Positions 9,012 through 54,976 of a DNA stretch of 64,000 nt are shown piece after piece. Both the position numbers and the translations under genes were made by a program. The notes beneath the pieces are model-generated. The model was not told the DNA's origin, did not search any database, and worked only from the letters and a program-made list of their open reading frames with translations. Each line of letters begins with the position of its first letter. Positions within the stretch are counted from its first letter, which is position 1. Source of the DNA: Pseudomonas paraeruginosa PA7 (GTDB lineage Bacteria > Pseudomonadota > Gammaproteobacteria > Pseudomonadales > Pseudomonadaceae); assembly GCF_000017205.1 (NCBI RefSeq), contig NC_009656.1, positions 3,352,001 to 3,416,000 of the forward strand, written 5' to 3'.

Positions 9012-10388
9012 TTACACGGTGTGCAGGTACCAGTTGTATTCCAGGTCGGAGATCGAGTACTCGAATTCCTCCAGCTCGCTCTCCTTGCAGGCGACGAAGA
9101 TGTCGATGTACTTCGGATCGATGTACTTCGCCAGGATCTCGCTGTCGTCCAGCTCGCGCAGGGCGTCGCGCAGGTTGTTCGGCAGGCTCGGCTCCAACTG
9201 CTCGTAGGAGTTGCCTTCGATCGGCGCGCCCGGCTCGACCTGGTTGCTCAGCCCGTGGTGGACCCCGGCCAGCACCGCTGCCAGCAGCAGGTAGGGGTTG
9301 GCGTCGGCGCCGGCCACACGGTGCTCCAGGCGCACCGCGTCCGGGCTGCCGGTGGGCACGCGCAGGGCCACGGTGCGGTTGTCCAGGCCCCAGCTCGGCG
9401 CGTTCGGCACGTAGAACTGCGAACCGAAGCGGCGGTAGGAGTTGACGTTGGGGCAGAGGAAGGCCATGGAGGCCGGCAGGGTCTCGAGCACACCGCCGAT
9501 CGCATGGCGCAATGCGGCGTTCTGCTCGGGGTCCTCGCTGGTGAAGATGTTGTTGCCGTGCTTGTCGAGCAGCGAGATGTGCACGTGCAGGCCGTTCCCG
9601 GCCTGGCCCGGATAGGGCTTGGCCATGAAGGTGGTGTCCATCTCGTGGTCGTAGGCGATGTTCTTGATCAGGCGCTTGAGCAGCACCGCATAGTCGCAGG
9701 CCTTCATCGGGTCGGCGACATGATGCAGGTTGACCTCGAACTGCGCCGGAGCGGATTCGGCGACGATGGCATCGGCCGGGATGCCCTGGGCGCGGGCGCC
9801 GTCGATGATGTCCTGGAGGCACTCGACGTATTCGTCGAGGTCGTCGATGGAATACACCTGCACCGACTGCGGGCGCTTGCCGGAGATCGGCGAGCGCGGC
9901 GGCTGCGGCCGGCCGTTCACGTTCTCCTGGTCGATCAGGTAGAACTCCAGTTCGAAGGCGGCGACGATGGTCAGTTCCATCTCGGTGAACTTGGCCACCA
10001 CCTGGCGCAGGACTTCGCGGGGGTCGGCGAAGAAGGGATCACCTTCCAGCTCATGCATGGTCATCAGCAGTTGCGCGGTGGGGCGCTTCTGCCAGGGCTC
10101 CATGGAGAGGGTGCCGGGGATCGGATAGCAGATCCGGTCGGCGTCGCCGATGTCGAGACCCAGGCCGGTGCTCTCCACGGTGGAGCCGGTGATGTCGAGG
10201 GCGAACAGGGAAGCGGGAAGGTTGATACCTTTTTCGAAGACTTTGGGCAGACTGTTGCGTTCGATCCGCTTGCCGCGAACCACGCCATTCATGTCTGAAA
10301 TCAGAAGGTCGACGAACTGGACCTCGGGATGTTCCTGAAGGAACAGGCTCGGCTCAGTGAGCTGAACGGCACGCAGGGGTACCGACAT
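9012..10388 (-). CDS. pauA4: Glutamate-polyamine ligase (glutamine synthetase family, PauA type)
   Basis: The protein has 458 residues with the glutamine-synthetase fold: N-terminal beta-grasp (VDLLISDMNGVVRGKRI) and catalytic domain with SAPAQFEVN, the GNGLHVHISL metal/ATP segment, and RVPTGSPDAVRLEHRVAGAD. Family members in P. aeruginosa (PauA1-7) join glutamate to putrescine, cadaverine or other polyamines using ATP, the first step of the gamma-glutamyl polyamine pathway. By gene order this corresponds to pauA4 (PA2040 as I recall). The adjacent PuuP-like permease supports a polyamine role. Which amine it prefers cannot be read from the sequence. Confidence 0.88.
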   Translation of the reverse strand: MSVPLRAVQLTEPSLFLQEHPEVQFVDLLISDMNGVVRGKRIERNSLPKVFEKGINLPASLFALDITGSTVESTGLGLDIGDADRICYPIPGTLSMEPWQKRPTAQLLMTMHELEGDPFFADPREVLRQVVAKFTEMELTIVAAFELEFYLIDQENVNGRPQPPRSPISGKRPQSVQVYSIDDLDEYVECLQDIIDGARAQGIPADAIVAESAPAQFEVNLHHVADPMKACDYAVLLKRLIKNIAYDHEMDTTFMAKPYPGQAGNGLHVHISLLDKHGNNIFTSEDPEQNAALRHAIGGVLETLPASMAFLCPNVNSYRRFGSQFYVPNAPSWGLDNRTVALRVPTGSPDAVRLEHRVAGADANPYLLLAAVLAGVHHGLSNQVEPGAPIEGNSYEQLEPSLPNNLRDALRELDDSEILAKYIDPKYIDIFVACKESELEEFEYSISDLEYNWYLHTV

Positions 10389-10937
10389 GATGCAACACCT
10401 TTTTTGTTAAAAATTTCAATCATGCGGGGGCTGGAGCCAGAGTCAATCGGAAAGCCAATTTGTTGTCAATAGCCCCTCCTCGATGCACACAAAATGCCGG
10501 GCGGCCGTAGAAAGGGCCTTCCAGGGCAGCAGGAAAGCGGTGAAAGCCAGGCCGGGCACGGTGTTCAACCGGGTGCAGCGGATATTTTACAGACGGCGTT
10601 GTACGAAAAATTGAACAAGGCTAAGCTGTGCCCACCCTACAACAGCAATAAACCGGGTGTTCCATGCCTTACCAGCCGTCCCTCGGCGCCAAGTTCCGTG
10701 GCCACAAGATCGGTCAGCATCCGCGCTAGCTGCGCTCCCTATCCCCGCCTGTCCCTGCCTTCGCCAGCCTCGCCGCCGTGGCCCGTGTTCGGCCGGCGAA
10801 CGTCTCGCCACTTCATCCTTATATAAGGAAGGACGGCGATCGCCTTTCGCACAGCCGCGAGCGGAGACGAACAGCAATATCGTTCAAGCCAGACCCGGAC
10901 GCCCCCTGGCATGCTGGCCCGACGTCCACCACCTGCC
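10389..10937. other. Long intergenic region with promoter-like and palindromic elements
   Basis: About 550 bases without a convincing gene. It contains the AT-rich promoter zone of the ligase gene (10395-10425), an ATG with a 21-codon frame (10662-10724) preceded by a leader-like CAACAGCAATAA stretch, and a perfect 14-bp palindrome, TCCTTATATAAGGA, at 10816-10829. The short frame looks like the remnant 5' end of a deleted gene rather than a functional peptide. The palindrome sits about 110 bp before azlC and could be an operator. Confidence 0.45.
10816..10829. promoter_or_regulatory. 14-bp perfect palindrome upstream of azlC
   Basis: TCCTTATATAAGGA is fully self-complementary and stands out as AT-rich in GC-rich surroundings. 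It may be an operator or an overlapping -10 element; no regulator gene adjoins it. Confidence 0.4.
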
Positions 10938-11654
10938 ATGCCCATGACCGCTACCGACCTGCCCCGCCACGCCTTTCTCCGCGGAGCCGTCGCCATCCTG
11001 CCACTGTCCCTGGCCGTCGCGCCCTGGGGCCTGCTGGCCGGATCGATGGCCATCGAAGCCAACCTGACCCCCGCCGAAGGCCAGGGCCTGTCCGCCATCG
11101 TCTTCGCCGGCGCCGCCCAGTTGGTGGCGATCGGCATGCTCAAGGGGGGCGCCGGTTTCTTCTCGATCATCTTCACCACCCTGCTGCTGACCTCCCAGCA
11201 CCTGCTCTACGGCATGAGCCTGCGCCCGGTGCTATCGCCGCTACCGGGACGCTGGCGGGTCGGCCTCGGCTTCCTGCTCACCGACGAATTCTTCGCTCTC
11301 GCCAGCCAGCACGACCAGCGCAACTTCGACCGCTGGTACGCACTCGGCGTCGGCCTGACCTTCTATGCCGCCTGGAACCTCTTCACCCTCGCCGGCATCC
11401 TCCTCGGTCGCAGCATTCCCGGCCTCGAGCACCTTGGCCTGGACTTCTCCATCGCCGCCACCTTCATCGCCCTGGTCGCGCCGCTGGTACGCAACGTGCC
11501 GACCGTGGTCTGCGTCGCCACCGCGCTGTTCTGCTCGGTGCTGTTCAGCTACTGGCAATGGAGTTCGGCGCTGGTCCTGGCCGGTCTCGCCGGGATGGCC
11601 GCCGGTTTCGTCTGCAACAAGCTGTATCGGGAGGCTCCATGGTCTGGGCAGTGA
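10938..11654 (+). CDS. azlC: AzlC-family branched-chain amino acid exporter, large subunit
   Basis: About 238 residues with 6-7 hydrophobic segments. It matches AzlC/YgaZ proteins, which pair with a small AzlD subunit to export branched-chain amino acids. The motif SAIVFAGAAQLVAIGML followed by SQHLLYGMSL and the LLTDEFFALAS segment are characteristic. Candidate starts are 10938 and 10944 (the frame opens at 10911); none has a clear ribosome-binding site and I chose 10938. The azlD start lies inside its 3' end, so the two are translationally coupled. Confidence 0.85.
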   Translation: MPMTATDLPRHAFLRGAVAILPLSLAVAPWGLLAGSMAIEANLTPAEGQGLSAIVFAGAAQLVAIGMLKGGAGFFSIIFTTLLLTSQHLLYGMSLRPVLSPLPGRWRVGLGFLLTDEFFALASQHDQRNFDRWYALGVGLTFYAAWNLFTLAGILLGRSIPGLEHLGLDFSIAATFIALVAPLVRNVPTVVCVATALFCSVLFSYWQWSSALVLAGLAGMAAGFVCNKLYREAPWSGQ

Positions 11655-11950
11655 TCTTCGGCATGGGCGCGATCGTCTTTCTCAACCGCTACCTGTTCCT
11701 CGAACCGCGCCTGCCGATCCGCCTGGGCAGCAACCTTCGGCAATTCCTCGGCTTCGCCGTGCCGGGCATGCTCACGGCGATCTGCGGCCCCATCGTGTTC
11801 ATGCCCGAGGGACGCATCGACCTCGGCTACGACAATCCCTACCTGGTCAGCGGCGTGGTCACCGTGGCGCTGGTGCTCTACACCCGCAACACCCTGGCGA
11901 GCATGCTGCTGGGCATGGCGTTCTTCTTTTTCTTCAAGTGGCTGGTCTGA
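11639..11950 (+). CDS. azlD: AzlD-family small membrane subunit
   Basis: 103 residues with three to four hydrophobic segments. The pattern AVIFGMGAIVFLNRYLFLEP then LGFAVPGMLTAI is typical of AzlD/YgaH, the small partner of AzlC. The ATG at 11639 has GGGAGG six bases upstream and overlaps the azlC 3' end by 16 bases. The C-terminal FFFFFKWLV is unusually phenylalanine-rich. It presumably forms the inner-membrane exporter with AzlC. Confidence 0.85.
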   Translation: MVWAVIFGMGAIVFLNRYLFLEPRLPIRLGSNLRQFLGFAVPGMLTAICGPIVFMPEGRIDLGYDNPYLVSGVVTVALVLYTRNTLASMLLGMAFFFFFKWLV

Positions 11951-12068
11951 CCGGGACCGGCCAGCGCTTCATGCGCAACGGGAATGAACTCGCGAAGAAA
12001 GGTCGCTTGGCGCCCACGCGCTTTCGGCCGAAGATCGGCGCATCGATCCTTCTCGCAGCGAGGTTCCC

Positions 12069-13727
12069 ATGGCCGACCCCCTTCCCCGGCGCAATGGCGG
12101 GCAGATCCTGGTGGAAGCGCTGCGGCGCAACGCCGTCGATACGGTCTATTGCATCCCCGGTGAAAGCTACCTGCCGGTGCTCGACGCGCTGCACGACGCC
12201 GCCGGCATCCGTACCGTCGTCACCCGTCACGAAGGCGCCGCCTCGAACATGGCCGACGCCTACGGCAAGCTGAGCGGACGACCGGGCATCTGCTTCGTCA
12301 CCCGCGGCCCCGGCGCCACCCACGCGGCCAATGGCGTGCACACCGCGAAGCAGGACTCGACGCCGATGATCCTGTTCATCGGCCAGGTGGAAAGCGCCTT
12401 CAAGGGCCGCGAGGCGTTCCAGGAAGTCGACTACGTGCAGATGTTCTCCGGCCTGGCCAAATGGGTCGTGGAAATAGACCGCATCGACCGGATACCGGAA
12501 CTCGTCGCCCGCGCCTTCGGTGTCGCCACCTCGGGCCGGCCGGGCCCGGTGGTGGTCGCGCTGCCCGAGGAGATCCTGTTCGGTTCCGCGCAGGTCGCGG
12601 ACGCACCGGCGCCACGCTTGCTGCCTGGCCAGCCTGCGGCCGCGGCGATGGGCGAACTGCAAGAGCGGCTGGACCGCGCGCAGCGTCCGCTGCTGGTGCT
12701 CGGCGGCAGCGGCTGGGACGAGACCGCCCGCAAGCGCCTGGCGGCCTTCGTTCATGCCAACGGCCTGCCGGTGGCCGCCTCGTTCCGCCGCCAGGACCTG
12801 TTCGACAACCGCGATCCGCACTATGTCGGACAACTGGGCTTCGGCGCCGCGCCAGGTCTGCTCGAGCGTGTTCGACAGGCCGACCTGCTGCTGGTGCTCG
12901 GTTCGCGCCTGAGCGAAACGCCGAGCGCCGGCTACAGCCTGGTCGGTTGCCCCGAGCCGGCGCAGGCGCTGGTCCACGTCCATGCCGACGGCGCGGAGCT
13001 CAACCGCGTCTACCTGGCGCACCTGCCGATCCAGGCCACTCCCGTCGCCTTCGCCGAGGCCCTCGCCGCCCTGCCGCCACGGCCCTCGCCGCCCTGGCAG
13101 GCCTGGCGCGAAGCCGCCCGCGCCGACTACCTGGCGTATTCGACCCCCGTCGCCAGCGACCCGGCGTTGCAGGGCGTCGACCTGGCGGCGGTGGTCGCGC
13201 ATCTGGATGAAACCTTGCCGGACGATGCGGTGATCGCCAACGGCGCCGGCAACTACGCGGTCTGGGTGCACCGCTTCTACCGCTATCGCCAGGCCCGCAC
13301 GCAGTTGGCGCCGACCAATGGCGCCATGGGCTACGGCCTGCCCGCGGCGATCGCCGCCAGCCTGCGCGAGCCGCGGCGCGACGTGGTGTGCTTCGCCGGC
13401 GACGGCTGCTTCATGATGTACCCGCAGGAACTGGCGACCGCCGCGCAGTTCGGCGCGACACCGGTGGTGATCGTGGTCAACAACGGCATGCTCGGGACCA
13501 TCCGCATGCACCAGGAGCGCGCATACCCAGGACGCGTTTCCGCCACCACCCTGGTCAATCCCGACTTCGTCGCCCTGGCGCGGGCGTTCGGCGCCTACGC
13601 CGAGCGGGTGGAACGCAGCGCCGACTTCCCCGAGGCATTCCGCCGCGCCCGCGCAAGCGGGCGCCCGGCGCTGCTCGAACTGCTCACCGATCCGCGCCAG
13701 GTCACGCCACAGGCACGCCTCGCCTGA
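12069..13727 (+). CDS. Thiamine diphosphate-dependent enzyme (acetolactate synthase-like)
   Basis: The protein has 552 residues with the three ThDP-enzyme domains: an N-terminal pyrimidine-binding domain with the cofactor-activating glutamate in RHEGAASNMADAYG, a central domain (about 190-330), and a C-terminal diphosphate-binding domain with GDGCFMMYPQEL...VVNNG. It resembles acetolactate synthase catalytic subunits and benzoylformate/indolepyruvate decarboxylases, but no regulatory small subunit is adjacent and it is separate from ilvIH. It lies 118 bp after azlCD on the same strand. A link between 2-keto-acid metabolism and branched-chain export is possible but only inferred. The true substrate is unknown. 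Confidence 0.85.
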   Translation: MADPLPRRNGGQILVEALRRNAVDTVYCIPGESYLPVLDALHDAAGIRTVVTRHEGAASNMADAYGKLSGRPGICFVTRGPGATHAANGVHTAKQDSTPMILFIGQVESAFKGREAFQEVDYVQMFSGLAKWVVEIDRIDRIPELVARAFGVATSGRPGPVVVALPEEILFGSAQVADAPAPRLLPGQPAAAAMGELQERLDRAQRPLLVLGGSGWDETARKRLAAFVHANGLPVAASFRRQDLFDNRDPHYVGQLGFGAAPGLLERVRQADLLLVLGSRLSETPSAGYSLVGCPEPAQALVHVHADGAELNRVYLAHLPIQATPVAFAEALAALPPRPSPPWQAWREAARADYLAYSTPVASDPALQGVDLAAVVAHLDETLPDDAVIANGAGNYAVWVHRFYRYRQARTQLAPTNGAMGYGLPAAIAASLREPRRDVVCFAGDGCFMMYPQELATAAQFGATPVVIVVNNGMLGTIRMHQERAYPGRVSATTLVNPDFVALARAFGAYAERVERSADFPEAFRRARASGRPALLELLTDPRQVTPQARLA

Positions 13728-50645: not shown

Positions 50646-51416
50646 ATGACCCTGAAAGGCAAGACCGCCCTGGTCACCGGCTCCACCAGCGGCATCGGCC
50701 TGGGCATCGCCCTGAGCCTGGCAGAGGCCGGCGCCGACCTGCTCCTCAACGGCTTCGGCGAGGTCGACGCGGCGCTGGCGCAGGTCCGCGCCCGCGGCGT
50801 GCGCGCCGAGCACCACCCGGCCGACCTCTCCAGCCCGGAGCAGATCGGCGAACTGATGGCCTTCGCCGAGCGGACCTTCGGCGGCGTCGACATCCTGGTC
50901 AACAACGCCGGCATCCAGTACGTGGCGCCGGTGCAGGAGTTCCCCACGGAACGCTGGGACGCGATCATCGCGATCAACCTGTCCTCGGTGTTCCATACCA
51001 CCCGCCTGGCCCTGCCGGGCATGCTCGCGCGCGGCTGGGGGCGGATCGTCAACATCGCCTCGACCCACGGCCTGGTCGCCTCGGCCGGAAAGAGCGCCTA
51101 CGTCGCCGCCAAGCACGGCGTGCTCGGCCTGACCAAGAGCGTGGCGCTGGAAACGGCGCGCACGCCGGTGACCTGCAACGCCATTTGCCCCGGCTGGGTA
51201 CTGACCCCGCTGGTGCAGAAGCAGATCGACGCGCGCATCGCCGAGGGCGTCTCGGCCGAACAGGCGCAACACGACCTGCTGGCGGAAAAACAACCCTCGC
51301 GGGCCTTCGTCACCCCCGAGCAACTCGGCGGATTGACGCTGTTCCTTTGCAGCGAAGCCGCCGACCAGGTGCGCGGCGCGGCCTGGAACATGGATGGCGG
51401 CTGGGTGGCACAATAG
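50646..51416 (+). CDS. bdhA: 3-hydroxybutyrate dehydrogenase
   Basis: The protein has 256 residues in the short-chain dehydrogenase family: TGSTSGIGLGIA cofactor-binding, NNAGIQYV, catalytic Ser (NIASTHGLVAS) and Tyr-Lys (KSAYVAAKHGVLGL). The C-terminal LLAEKQPSRAFVTPEQLGG is typical of bacterial 3-hydroxybutyrate dehydrogenases. It converts (R)-3-hydroxybutyrate to acetoacetate with NAD+. It lies 34 bp after gntP, with GCGGGAGAA upstream. Acetoacetate is then activated by dhcAB or the synthetase at 59 kb. Confidence 0.95.
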   Translation: MTLKGKTALVTGSTSGIGLGIALSLAEAGADLLLNGFGEVDAALAQVRARGVRAEHHPADLSSPEQIGELMAFAERTFGGVDILVNNAGIQYVAPVQEFPTERWDAIIAINLSSVFHTTRLALPGMLARGWGRIVNIASTHGLVASAGKSAYVAAKHGVLGLTKSVALETARTPVTCNAICPGWVLTPLVQKQIDARIAEGVSAEQAQHDLLAEKQPSRAFVTPEQLGGLTLFLCSEAADQVRGAAWNMDGGWVAQ

Positions 51417-51455
51417 GACTCGCCGGCGCCGCGCCGGCCAACTGGAACAGGGACA

Positions 51456-51480
51456 GGCCCGGAACATGAAACTCCGGGCC
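51456..51480 (+). terminator. Hairpin downstream of bdhA
   Basis: GGCCCGGA and TCCGGGCC, perfect 8-bp stem with a 9-nt loop, 39 bp after the bdhA stop; no strong U-run follows. Confidence 0.5.
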
Positions 51481-51586
51481 GATCGCGATGCCGGGGACGC
51501 CTTTCTCCAAATGAAATTCATCTCCATGACTCGGAATGAATACCGAACAATAGCGAAACGCTATATTCCATATGAGGAACTAGCGT

Positions 51587-51615
51587 TTGACTCTTTTCTG
51601 GCGTCAAATTAAAAA
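51587..51615 (+). promoter_or_regulatory. Sigma-70-like promoter of the cassette
   Basis: TTGACT (51587-51592), a 17-bp spacer and TAAAAA (51610-51615) match the -35 and -10 consensus at five and four of six positions. The expected transcription start, near 51621, falls just before the RraA-like gene leader. Confidence 0.55.
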
Positions 51616-51619
51616 AGCC

Positions 51620-51694
51620 CTCACATCGAGTTCCCCCTGAAGAAGGGGAATCTGCAACACGGACGAAACTTTCCTGAAGGAGCATCGATGTGAG
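51620..51694 (+). promoter_or_regulatory. Structured 5' leader that can sequester the RraA-like start codon
   Basis: CTCACATCGA (51620-51629) is the exact complement of TCGATGTGAG (51685-51694), which contains the GTG start. Inside lies a TTCCCC/GGGGAA hairpin and, near the end, TTCC/GGAA pairing at the ribosome-binding site. Because the predicted transcript begins at about 51621, the first ten bases could pair across the start codon. Alternatively, read on the minus strand the stem is followed by TTTTTT and looks like a terminator. Confidence 0.5.
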
Positions 51695-52385
51695 CCATGA
51701 ACTTTTCATTGAAATAAGACAGCAGCCAATCAGCACTTCGACTTTCGCCGACCTCCTGGATACTTATGGTGTCGGCGAAGTTCTCTGTCGAAATATCGTT
51801 TCAAGAAACACGCAACGACATTATTTCATAGGGCATGCCTATACGGTGGAATGGGAGCGGGTCAGGAAGACCGGCGACATCACCCGTGCGCAACCTTCCA
51901 CCTGGGAACAGGTGAAGGACTTCCTCGTCCCGGACCTGAGTTCGGCCAGGGACCTGGTCTACGTCGCCGGAGCCGGCGCGCTGACGACCGACGCCGCGCT
52001 GGCGGGGGGCCTGAGTTGCACCTATTTCGCCAAGCTGGGTTTCGAAGGCATCGTCCTCGGTGGCTCCGTCCGCGATGCGGCGGAAGTAAGGGCCCTGACG
52101 ACCCCCGTCCTGGCCAGCAACTTCACCCCGGTCGATACCCAGGGCGCCTACCGCGTCAGGAGCACGGGGGAAAGCTGCATGATCGAAGGCAGCCGCGTGA
52201 CGAGCGGCGACGTGGTGGTCTCGGACGACAACGGCACCGTGGTGTTCCCTGCCCCGCTACTCGGCGAACTCTACGAAAAGGCCCTCGAAATCGAGCGGAT
52301 CGAGGGAGAAATCCTCGCCACCCTGCGTAACGGGCATGACCACAGGAGCCTGGCCAGCCTCGTGGAGGAACGCAACCGCATCTGA
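51690..52385 (+). CDS. RraA-like family protein (HMG/CHA aldolase-like fold)
   Basis: 231 residues. FEGIVLGGSVRDAAEVRAL holds the GGxxRD motif and SGDVVVSDDNGTVVFP the D-D-G-V strand of the RraA/4-hydroxy-4-methyl-2-oxoglutarate aldolase superfamily, where Arg and Asp bind a pyruvate-like substrate and divalent metal. Family members are either aldolases/decarboxylases or RNase E inhibitors; this one has the aldolase-type pocket residues, so an enzymatic role is likelier (inference). The GTG start follows AAGGAG by seven bases; an ATG two bases earlier is followed at once by TGA. It heads a three-gene unit. Confidence 0.82.
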   Translation: MSHELFIEIRQQPISTSTFADLLDTYGVGEVLCRNIVSRNTQRHYFIGHAYTVEWERVRKTGDITRAQPSTWEQVKDFLVPDLSSARDLVYVAGAGALTTDAALAGGLSCTYFAKLGFEGIVLGGSVRDAAEVRALTTPVLASNFTPVDTQGAYRVRSTGESCMIEGSRVTSGDVVVSDDNGTVVFPAPLLGELYEKALEIERIEGEILATLRNGHDHRSLASLVEERNRI

Positions 52386-52415
52386 CCCGGTAAACACCAC
52401 AGGGAAGAACCAAGG

Positions 52416-52949
52416 ATGAATATCTATACGCTGGGTCCCAGCGGGACCAACTGTGAAAAAGCCGCCCGGCAATATATGGCCAAGAGTGGCTGGAATGGCC
52501 AGATCGAACTTCGCGCCACCCTCGAAGAAGCCCTGGATGATTTGCTCGGCTCACAAGAACCGGGAATCCTGATGGGCTGTATCGTTTATCCCAGGCTGCA
52601 TGAAATCGTATTTCGTCACCTCGATCGCTTGAAACTTGTCGACCACCATCTCATGGATACCTATGACATGGTCTTCGCGCGAAACGGAAATACCACGGTA
52701 AAACGAATCGGCTCCCATCCAGCACCCACCAGTCTGCTGGCAAAGTTAGGGGAGCCTGCAACTTCCGCCGAACTTGTCCTGTGCACTTCGAACAGTGAGG
52801 CCGCTCGCCAATGTGCCCTGGGAAATATAGATGGCTGCATCACCACCATCGAGGCGGCGCAGAATAACGAGCTGCATATCGTGGAGAACTTCGGTCCGGT
52901 ACCGATGGGTTTCAGTATCCACCTGAAAACCGCGACGCCGGTAGCCTGA
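52416..52949 (+). CDS. Prephenate dehydratase/BacA-like small protein
   Basis: 177 residues. The N-terminus TLGPSGTNCEKAARQY is the GP-GTxxExAA signature of prephenate dehydratase-type periplasmic-binding-like folds, and the end (ENFGPVPMGFSIHL) fits their last strand. The TRF motif required for dehydration in canonical prephenate dehydratase is not seen, and there is no ACT domain. That is also the situation in non-aromatising prephenate decarboxylases such as BacA of bacilysin biosynthesis, so a decarboxylase or a binding protein is possible. It is 30 bp after the RraA-like gene and 31 bp before the cupin gene. Base composition is lower in GC than flanking genes. Confidence 0.75.
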   Translation: MNIYTLGPSGTNCEKAARQYMAKSGWNGQIELRATLEEALDDLLGSQEPGILMGCIVYPRLHEIVFRHLDRLKLVDHHLMDTYDMVFARNGNTTVKRIGSHPAPTSLLAKLGEPATSAELVLCTSNSEAARQCALGNIDGCITTIEAAQNNELHIVENFGPVPMGFSIHLKTATPVA

Positions 52950-52980
52950 CGATTCCGGACTCATGGAGCCAATGATTCCC

Positions 52981-53352
52981 ATGGAAAAGATCATCATCGA
53001 AAACCTGAAGAAGCATGCGATCAATGCCGACGGCAGCGCCCGTGCCGGCTTCATCCACACCGCGCACTGCACCATAGCTTTCTGGAACCTGGAAAAGGGA
53101 GCGGTGATCCCCTGCCACCGGCATGTGCACGAAGCCTGCCCCATCATCATCAAGGGCCGGCTGAAACTGCGGGTCGGCGACGTGACCCATGTGCTCGGCG
53201 ACGGTCAATGCGCGGTGATCGCCTCGAATGTCGAGCATGAAGCCCTGGCGCTCGAAGCCTGCGAGATACTCGAGATCTACTCGCCGGTGCGGGAGGACTA
53301 CCAGCAACTGGACTTTCGCAAGGTCGCCTGGGACGTGGTCGCCGAAACCTGA
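52981..53352 (+). CDS. Single-domain cupin protein
   Basis: 123 residues from ATG 52981; an in-frame ATG at 52963 would add six. GGAG at 52965-52968 favours the later start. The conserved metal site is visible: IPCHRHVHEACPIIIKGR (HxHxxE) and SNVEHEA, giving His, His, Glu, His ligands. Small cupins act as isomerases, epimerases, dioxygenases or sensors. Its tight spacing with the BacA-like gene is reminiscent of the BacA-BacB decarboxylase-isomerase pair, although BacB has two cupin domains. The true reaction is unknown. Confidence 0.8.
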   Translation: MEKIIIENLKKHAINADGSARAGFIHTAHCTIAFWNLEKGAVIPCHRHVHEACPIIIKGRLKLRVGDVTHVLGDGQCAVIASNVEHEALALEACEILEIYSPVREDYQQLDFRKVAWDVVAET

Positions 53353-53416
53353 TCCGGCGCCTGCGGCGATAGCTGTCCTCCACGCCAGTCATCCCTCCGT
53401 GGGCGTTTACCGTCCC

Positions 53417-53535
53417 AGGCGTTATCCGCCATTGCCCCGCTGGCTCGGCGGATAGCCGCGTTGCGGTCATTCGCCCTACGGCCCCGGCTCCGTGCCCCGG
53501 CGTAGGGCGCATAACGCCGCAGGCGTTATCCGCCG
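53417..53535. repeat. Cluster of REP-like palindromes
   Basis: Three partial or complete copies of the P. aeruginosa GGCGGATA-n-CGC motif: 53418-53430 (AGGCGTTATCCGCC half), 53447-53480 (GGCGGATAGCCGCG then GCGGTCATTCGCCCTACG) and 53501-53534 (CGTAGGGCGCATAACGCC then GGCGTTATCCGCC). They separate the cassette from the convergent permease gene and may terminate transcription on both sides. Confidence 0.8.
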
Positions 53536-53551
53536 TTGTTCCACCGATACG

Positions 53552-54976
53552 CTACGGCATCACCGGCGGAATGTAGGCCAGGGTGCTGCCCAGGGCCCAG
53601 AGCAGCACCAGCACCAACGGGATGTGCACCAGCAGCTGGACGAACGAGAAGCCGATCAGGTCGCGCGCCTTCAGCCCCAGCACGCCGAGCAACGGCAGCA
53701 TGTAGAACGGGTTGATCAGGTTCGGCAGCGCCTCGGCGGCATTGTAGATCTGTACCGCCCAGCCGAGGTGGTATTGCAGTTCGTTGGCCACCTGCATCAC
53801 GTACGGCGCCTCGATGATCCACTTGCCGCCGCCCGAAGGAATGAAGAAGCCCAGCACCGCCGAGTACACGCCCATCAGCAGCGCATAGGTATCGTGGGAG
53901 GCGATCTGCACGAAGAAGGTCGAGATATGGTGGGCCAGGGTCTCGCCGTCGCTGCCGTTGACCGTCGTCATGATCGCCGCGATCGAGCCGTACAGCGGGA
54001 ACTGGATCAGCACCCCGGTGGTGGTCGGCACCGCGCGCGCCACCGCGTCGAGGAAGCTGCGCGGGCGCCAGTGCAGCAGCGCGCCGAGCATCAGGAACAG
54101 CAGGTTATAGGTGTTCAGCCCGGAGATCGCCAGGATCGCCGGCTTGGTCGAGAACTCGTGGACCAGCCAGCCGCCGGCCAGCAGCACCAGCAGGATGATC
54201 AGCAGCGGGCTGTGCTCCAGCCACTCGCCGGGCCGGGTCGGCGCCAGTTTCGCCGGTGCCGTGAAGCTCACGTCGACCCCGCAGGCCTTGGCGTCGCGGG
54301 CGCTGGCGGCGCTCGGCGCGGTCATGTAGGCGATCACCAGCGAGACCAGGACCAATGCCAGCAGCATGACTCCTGACTGCCAGAGGAAGATGGTCTCGGT
54401 GAACGGGATCACCCCGGTGATCGCCAGGATCGACGGTGGCAGGCTGGCCGGGTTGGCCTGCAACTGCGCGGCCGACGACGACAGGCCCAGCGCCCACACC
54501 GCGCCGAGGCCAAGGTAGGCGGCGGCGCCGGCGGCGCGGTAGTCCATGCGCAGCTCTTCGCGGCGCGCCAGGGCGCGTACCAGCAGGCCGCCGAAGACCA
54601 GGCTGAGACCCCAGTTGAGCAGCGAGGCGAGCATCGACACCAGCGCCACCCAGCAGACCGCCGAGCGGCCATTCTTCGGCACTCGCGCGAGCAGATCGAT
54701 GAGACGCGAGGCGGGGCCTGAGCTGGCTACCACGTAGCCGCCGATGACCACGAAGGCCATCTGCATGGTGAACGGGATCAGGCTCCAGAAACCGTCGCCG
54801 AAGGCCTTCGCCGTGGCGGTCGGGCCGGCGCCCATGGCCAGCGCGGCCAGGCTGACGATAAGGATGGCCAGGGCGGCGAACACCCAGGAGTCGGGAAACC
54901 AGCGCTCGGCCCAGCTCGAGCAACGCATGGCGAAGCGCGCGGAGCGGCTTTCTTGGATGGGAAGGATAGCGGTCAT
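53552..54976 (-). CDS. atoE: Short-chain fatty acid transporter (AtoE family)
   Basis: About 474 residues with 10-12 hydrophobic segments. NGSDGETLAHHISTFFVQIASHDTYALLM and GFFIPSGGGKWIIEAPYVMQVA are characteristic of AtoE/SCFA transporters, which take up butyrate or acetoacetate. ATG 54976 (MTAILPIQESR) is where hydrophobic homologous sequence begins; the frame opens at 55156 without conserved sequence. It is the last gene of the dhcA-dhcB-atoB-atoE group. I use atoE by family, not by proven substrate. Confidence 0.87.
   Translation of the reverse strand: MTAILPIQESRSARFAMRCSSWAERWFPDSWVFAALAILIVSLAALAMGAGPTATAKAFGDGFWSLIPFTMQMAFVVIGGYVVASSGPASRLIDLLARVPKNGRSAVCWVALVSMLASLLNWGLSLVFGGLLVRALARREELRMDYRAAGAAAYLGLGAVWALGLSSSAAQLQANPASLPPSILAITGVIPFTETIFLWQSGVMLLALVLVSLVIAYMTAPSAASARDAKACGVDVSFTAPAKLAPTRPGEWLEHSPLLIILLVLLAGGWLVHEFSTKPAILAISGLNTYNLLFLMLGALLHWRPRSFLDAVARAVPTTTGVLIQFPLYGSIAAIMTTVNGSDGETLAHHISTFFVQIASHDTYALLMGVYSAVLGFFIPSGGGKWIIEAPYVMQVANELQYHLGWAVQIYNAAEALPNLINPFYMLPLLGVLGLKARDLIGFSFVQLLVHIPLVLVLLWALGSTLAYIPPVMP

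Follow-up and report, generated by a model that had tools for sequence, protein, structure and literature searches.

A rare three-gene module of Pseudomonas paraeruginosa PA7, moved between lineages, that may divert prephenate into a non-aromatic building block

The window analysed here is a stretch of 64,000 nucleotides of Pseudomonas paraeruginosa PA7 (positions 3352001-3416000, G000:C1 in our numbering, of a single-contig genome of 6,588,339 bp). It contains a cassette of three plus-strand genes, encoding an RraA-like protein of the HMG/CHA-aldolase type (51690..52385), a short, TdaC-like or BacA-type protein with the prephenate dehydratase (PDT) fold (52416..52949) and a single-domain cupin (52963..53352). 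Our comparative analyses revealed that these genes are a conserved, rare module that has moved between lineages. Most likely, they divert prephenate, a precursor of the aromatic amino acids, into an unusual building block of the small-antibiotic kind. To the more specific reading, in which a horizontally moved, bacilysin-like front end (a BacA-like protein and a cupin) works with a metal/enolate enzyme to make a non-aromatic, prephenate-derived 2-oxo acid, we give a probability of roughly 0.6.

The association of the three genes was examined in 91 loci, the window not counted, which comprised the best 80 of 88 relatives found by a PDT-like family search (alignment A2) of genome contigs and 11 fetched of 83 plasmid-collection records, mostly from Phaeobacter. 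RraA and cupin neighbours were scored by tblastn (E ≤ 1e-5) with PA7 and Proteus queries. With near relatives included, both neighbours were present in 26 of the 91 loci and only one of them in none, so that all 26 loci with RraA also carry the cupin and the PDT-like gene. These loci, given below by their L numbers where needed, span Pseudomonadota and Actinomycetota. The order RraA, PDT-like, cupin is found in 16 of them (Pseudomonas, Acinetobacter, Aeromonas, Proteus, Providencia, Morganella, Yersinia, Serratia and Buttiauxella), the order cupin, PDT-like, RraA in six actinobacterial loci, and extra genes lie between the module genes in L060, L062, L082 and L104. When the search was started from RraA in the family of Morganella, matches were obtained in 4 of the 392 genomes drawn. 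The PDT-like gene, the cupin and a class II DAHP synthase adjoin RraA in all four of these RraA-first matches outside PA7, three of which are loci already in the 91-locus set.

The proteins also appear to have diverged together. The protein distances of the three genes agree (Mantel r 0.857, 0.752 and 0.652; none of 999 permutations as high) over 26 rows, namely the window and 25 loci; L032 was dropped from the RraA and cupin alignments and L040 from the cupin alignment. The locus counted among the 26 but excluded from the alignments and the Mantel test is L091 (module copy at 9263-12396) of Providencia alcalifaciens, in which the PDT-like and DAHP synthase genes match in separate pieces; given this fragmentation, the copy is probably broken or misread. 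A PDT tree of 89 rows was built, with L005, L070 and L102 omitted as near copies and only residues 1-175 of L088 used. In it, PA7 forms a clade with P. costantinii and P. psychrophila (support 100/100), which in turn joins 13 further gammaproteobacterial rows plus Trinickia (96/84). The module-bearing rows do not form one group over the whole tree (2 changes).

Within its own relatives the module is rare. The RraA subfamily (E ≤ 1e-30) was found in 1 of 398 Pseudomonadaceae genomes and in 1 of 369 Gammaproteobacteria genomes, PA7 itself in each case. These sets of 398 and 369 genomes, like the 392 above, are draws and not whole groups, and two module-bearing Pseudomonas species unmatched in the 398-genome search lie outside that draw. 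Likewise, the PDT-like gene occurs in PA7 only among 25 genomes of the genus. The sites of insertion vary. In PA7 the module lies between the convergent genes bdhA (50646..51416, plus strand; 3-hydroxybutyrate dehydrogenase, above the cut-offs of NF009093 and TIGR01963; 0.918 GC at third codon positions, GC3) and an atoE-type short-chain fatty acid permease gene (53552..54976, minus strand; PF02667, 279 bits), whose start at 54976 was chosen by eye in an open reading frame (ORF) extending to 55156. In P. costantinii it lies near a fasciclin-domain gene, and in Proteus between plsY and tsaD, flanks recognised by eye. The plsY-tsaD interval of E. coli K-12 holds the ttd genes, indicating a variable slot and not an empty site. 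Taken together, the rarity, the shared three-gene unit and the differing sites are what would be expected of a unit handed on from one lineage to another.

The composition of the PA7 genes is in keeping with horizontal acquisition. As the original prediction had described, the cassette is closely spaced, with 30 bp between the RraA and PDT-like genes and 31 bp between the PDT-like and cupin genes if ATG 52981 is taken as the cupin start, and it is lower in GC than its surroundings. For the RraA, PDT-like and cupin genes, respectively, GC is 0.613, 0.544 and 0.602 against 0.681 ± 0.031, GC3 is 0.753, 0.616 and 0.806 against 0.891 ± 0.036, and a codon-adaptation measure is 0.478, 0.348 and 0.624 against 0.680 ± 0.075, for 37 other window ORFs that were selected by script for GC3 > 0.80, which flatters the contrast, and some of which may be non-genes. 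Two 60-base samples cited in support of this bias do have 40% GC, but one of them (51541-51600) lies between genes, and neither represents a gene as a whole. The claim of horizontal acquisition nevertheless held up on this odd composition, the rarity in the genus, family and class searches and the other sites occupied elsewhere, just as the co-occurrence of the three genes was found in other genomes. Neither observation named in the original prediction as refuting it, the three genes at this locus in every Pseudomonas species with matching composition or a lack of co-occurrence elsewhere, was made.

Among 24 other genomes of the genus, apparently none of them P. aeruginosa, the best DNA match to the permease gene is 91%. 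Long matches to both bdhA and the permease gene occur in at least 12 genomes of the genus, where the two are on separate contigs or, within one contig or numbering, at least 46 kb apart, and thus provide no empty site. The flanks of the P. psychrophila site are not conserved, and its module part is matched in none of 25 other genomes. No plasmid-collection record covers 80% of the PA7 locus. None of the islands in Table 3 of the PA7 genome paper falls between PSPA7_3263 and 3353 (PMC2809737), the interval in which the cassette would probably lie, to judge from its distance to mexXY-like ORFs. In Yersinia similis, two IS3-type transposase-like ORFs, recognised by eye, directly follow the cupin (L087, 11043-12214), and such an element is a possible vehicle. 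One source record, L002 (NZ_OL790811.1, 4.08 Mb), is labelled a plasmid and is evidently a Proteus mirabilis chromosome, as judged by eye from cca, plsY, tsaD, dnaG and rpoD.

The PDT-like protein has 177 aa, and its PF00800 score of 26.2 bits (residues 3-157) exceeds the gathering cut-off of 25.2. A sequence search of the PDB returned no PDT and only chance-level matches, whereas a fold search recovered the PDT fold, residues 1-174 corresponding to the PDT part of 3mwb; the C-terminal ACT domain is absent. The TRF motif, the catalytic motif of canonical prephenate dehydratases, is present in all five canonical PDTs examined, two of them near-identical, and in none of 90 PDT-like relatives, three of them BacA-type; the PA7 protein has MGF. 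YP and HPAP stand in place of the canonical EN and SH-type motifs. Judged from these residues, the protein is not a canonical prephenate dehydratase. It shares the motifs TLGPxGT, HPAP, TT..AA and PM.F/W with the BacA type, and the comparison by hhalign with a BacA-type profile, built from three rows only (L021 and L023, annotated BacA, and L022, not so annotated), gave 99.7%, E 2.7e-25 and 167 columns, against E 2.5e-6 and 73 columns for canonical PDT. Identity to proteins annotated BacA is about 26-34%; the closest named relative is TdaC, with 41.1% over residues 2-169 (95% of the length).

These features bear on the strongest competing explanation, in which the protein would be an unregulated, ACT-free prephenate dehydratase that boosts the flux to phenylpyruvate, and RraA and the cupin would make a small aromatic from phenylpyruvate or a by-product. 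The PF00800 match, the PDT fold and the neighbouring class II DAHP synthases are compatible with such a role, and it has been suggested for TdaC in the same article that calls the role of TdaC obscure (PMC7497051). The absence of TRF from every relative, the altered EN and SH-type motifs and the much closer resemblance to the BacA-type profile make this explanation unlikely.

The RraA-like protein (231 aa, GTG start; PF03737, 72 bits) has a complete pyruvate-enolate site (G106, R128, D129 and E205). R128, D129 and E205 are invariant in the 25 aligned module RraA proteins and pair, by spacing alone, with R123, D124 and E199 of HMG/CHA aldolase, suggesting that the HMG/CHA-aldolase catalytic residues are retained. 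The LigK/PcmE equivalog score is 38.9 bits against a cut-off of 304.5, and that for the RNase E regulator RraA is 35.1 bits against 136. With these NCBIfam cut-offs missed and the catalytic set retained, we rejected a function as an RNase E regulator. PA7 has a second RraA-family gene elsewhere in the genome (3661173-3661619). The intact site could also serve a lyase, cleaving pyruvate from prephenate or from its decarboxylated product by a vinylogous retro-aldol reaction or elimination and yielding a ring fragment, such as a cyclohexadienone or hydroxybenzoate, instead of a 2-oxo acid. Prephenate resembles CHA in that its quaternary carbon bears both a carboxyl group and a pyruvyl side chain, which would suit such a cleavage. 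However, one enzyme would then be enough and the other two would be idle, and the class IV aminotransferases of 4 of the 26 loci and the amino-acid-type ligases of some fit an alpha-keto acid product; we regard this route as slightly less probable even than increased flux to phenylpyruvate.

The third protein (129 aa; Cupin_2, 44.3 bits) perhaps starts at ATG 52981, as suggested by its alignment with its two Pseudomonas relatives. H52, H54, E57 and H92 are invariant in the 24 aligned module cupins. Its match to BacB in the PDB is not significant (E 0.2). Overall, the conserved residues and the fold searches agree with the three folds first assigned to the cassette, a pyruvate-type aldolase, a prephenate-type binding protein and a metal cupin.

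The neighbours of the module point in the same direction. DAHP synthase is the first enzyme of the shikimate pathway, and a class II DAHP synthase gene near 16 of the 26 modules argues for prephenate chemistry. Of the 65 loci without RraA and cupin, one (L096) encodes a class II DAHP synthase, and in another (L003) a gene is annotated as DAHP synthase/chorismate mutase. Class IV aminotransferases occur in L060, L062, L082 and L104, PF10014 dioxygenases (2OG-Fe) in L062, L082 and L104, and an ATP-grasp ligase in L082. AMP-binding and carrier proteins come straight after the cupin in L104 and, together with an acyltransferase domain, farther off in L062, and the stretch after RraA in L060 resembles, by eye alone, a nonribosomal peptide synthetase condensation domain. 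The actinobacterial loci L045 and L085 contain a zinc-dehydrogenase-type reductase. Enzymes of the aminotransferase, ligase and reductase kinds act after BacA and BacB in the synthesis of bacilysin or take part in peptide assembly (PMC9147277). As a separate observation, the reductase of Actinoplanes couchii L085 (11276-12436) is fused to an MbtH-like domain. That the three enzymes instead degrade or detoxify an external keto acid, the bdhA/atoE setting reflecting acid catabolism, is very improbable: RraA relatives do take part in gallate/protocatechuate breakdown (PMC5065237) and the PA7 neighbours are short-chain acid genes, but elsewhere the module lies beside other genes, the DAHP synthase and adenylation/carrier neighbours are biosynthetic, and the minimal module has no transporter gene.

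Returning to the proposed non-aromatic 2-oxo acid, we can outline how it might be made; the enzyme steps draw on knowledge of the families, next to the observed co-occurrence, co-variation and site differences. The PDT-fold protein would take prephenate and remove CO2 without aromatising the ring, since it lacks the dehydratase catalytic motif and resembles the BacA type over its full length. The cupin would then move the double bonds of the ring, the task of BacB on the way to bacilysin. The RraA-like enzyme would hold the side chain of the 2-oxo acid on a divalent metal and stabilise its enolate, and would thus most likely enolise, isomerise or cleave the side chain, giving a non-aromatic 2-oxo acid derived from prephenate or a fragment of one. 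In the larger clusters, the product might receive an amino and a hydroxyl group and be coupled by ATP-grasp or adenylation/carrier enzymes. The PA7 cassette itself contains no gene for a DAHP synthase, an aminotransferase, a ligase or an exporter, and a self-contained pathway is not supported; the shikimate pathway of PA7 would supply the substrate, and host enzymes, for example a general aminotransferase, would finish the product.

The ends of the cassette have features of their own. The AT-rich leader between bdhA and the module (51417..51689, plus strand; GC 0.524) has a fold equalled by none of 200 shuffles (z -3.4) and, at 51620-51694, a perfect 10-nt inverted repeat, CTCACATCGA/TCGATGTGAG, whose 3' arm spans the GTG start of RraA. 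This repeat, which could not be made out by eye in the leaders of P. costantinii and P. psychrophila, could be a translation switch. As to a promoter of its own, a consensus scan gave no match and did not report the PA7 block TTGACT-17-TAAAAA (51587..51615, plus strand), yet TTGACT-17 nt-TA(A/G/C)AAA recurs with identical spacing upstream of the modules of P. costantinii (L026) and P. psychrophila (L027). The cassette ends, as predicted, in a REP/BIME-like repeat (53355..53548; inverted-repeat arms 53446-53480/53501-53535) with 49 matches in its own genome at E ≤ 0.001, itself included. The two Rfam P33 matches both fall on this element and are both under the gathering score.

Other PDT-like relatives, lacking RraA and cupin, have different partners, and many adjoin DUF6421, ATP-grasp and exporter genes. 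A cluster of an EamA/DMT-type exporter, an ATP-grasp ligase, a TdaC-like protein and DUF6421 recurs in Bacillus, Priestia, Staphylococcus, Pantoea and Marinobacter (L004, L020, L048, L054, L055, L057, L061, L063, L065, L072, L075, L077, L079, L090 and L099), the Staphylococcus xylosus plasmid stretch L004 being without DUF6421; its make-up suggests a dipeptide pathway. A class IV aminotransferase accompanies the TdaC-like protein, DUF6421 and ATP-grasp ligase in Pseudomonas edaphica, P. salomonii, P. cichorii and P. batumici (L084, L086, L092 and L093). The open-access literature found on DUF6421 concerns polyoxin, and the family is described as including an Fe/pterin oxidase acting on isoleucine (PMC12614342).

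RraA-fold enzymes are usually discussed as RNase E regulators or catabolic aldolases, and the module places one in a biosynthetic setting. With somewhat less than an even chance, it represents an undescribed reaction sequence on prephenate in which a cupin and a BacA-type protein are teamed with a metal/enolate enzyme that has the RraA-aldolase fold. The open-access literature yielded no paper on prephenate with an RraA-like protein, nor on a gene cluster of the RraA family and prephenate dehydratase. If the proposal is correct, a new branch of the shikimate pathway would travel as a mobile unit of two phyla and feed several kinds of peptide assembly, and TdaC would be a BacA-type enzyme and not a dehydratase. 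Three unremarkable annotations thereby become one testable pathway, and the PA7-type cassette offers the simplest system for learning what these proteins make.

Compared with known systems, the module combines familiar parts in a different way. Its RraA differs from HMG/CHA aldolase, a class II pyruvate aldolase (PDB 3noj), in having conserved blocks of its own, such as STW and DTQG, and the PA7 cassette has no ring-cleavage genes. The TdaC-like/DUF6421/ATP-grasp clusters of Bacillus, Streptomyces and the Pseudomonas cichorii group share the PDT-like protein with the module; they have DUF6421 and no RraA or cupin relative. In the tropodithietic acid (TDA) cluster of Phaeobacter, TdaC is the closest named kin of the PDT-like protein. 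A TDA-type tropone pathway was rejected for PA7, as tda partners are missing at the locus: tdaB, tdaD and tdaE are absent near the cassette, whose neighbours are permease, bdhA, RraA, cupin and permease genes, and none of 12 TDA-type loci has an RraA or cupin relative by tblastn. TdaC can be placed in a family, a BacA-type branch of the PDT fold, whose members number in the dozens and are encoded next to ligases and oxidases and, at a few loci, carrier proteins. BacB of the bacilysin pathway is a double cupin, whereas the PA7 cupin is single and the RraA-like enzyme is an additional third component. The PA7 cassette also lacks the bac-type ligase, aminotransferase and exporter genes of the bacilysin operon, and the flanking short-chain dehydrogenase/reductase scores as a 3-hydroxybutyrate dehydrogenase. 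The BacA-BacB front end of bacilysin/anticapsin synthesis in Bacillus likewise pairs a PDT-fold protein with a cupin acting on prephenate (PMC9147277), and counterparts of the bacilysin aminotransferase, ATP-grasp ligase or reductase are present in some larger relatives of the module.
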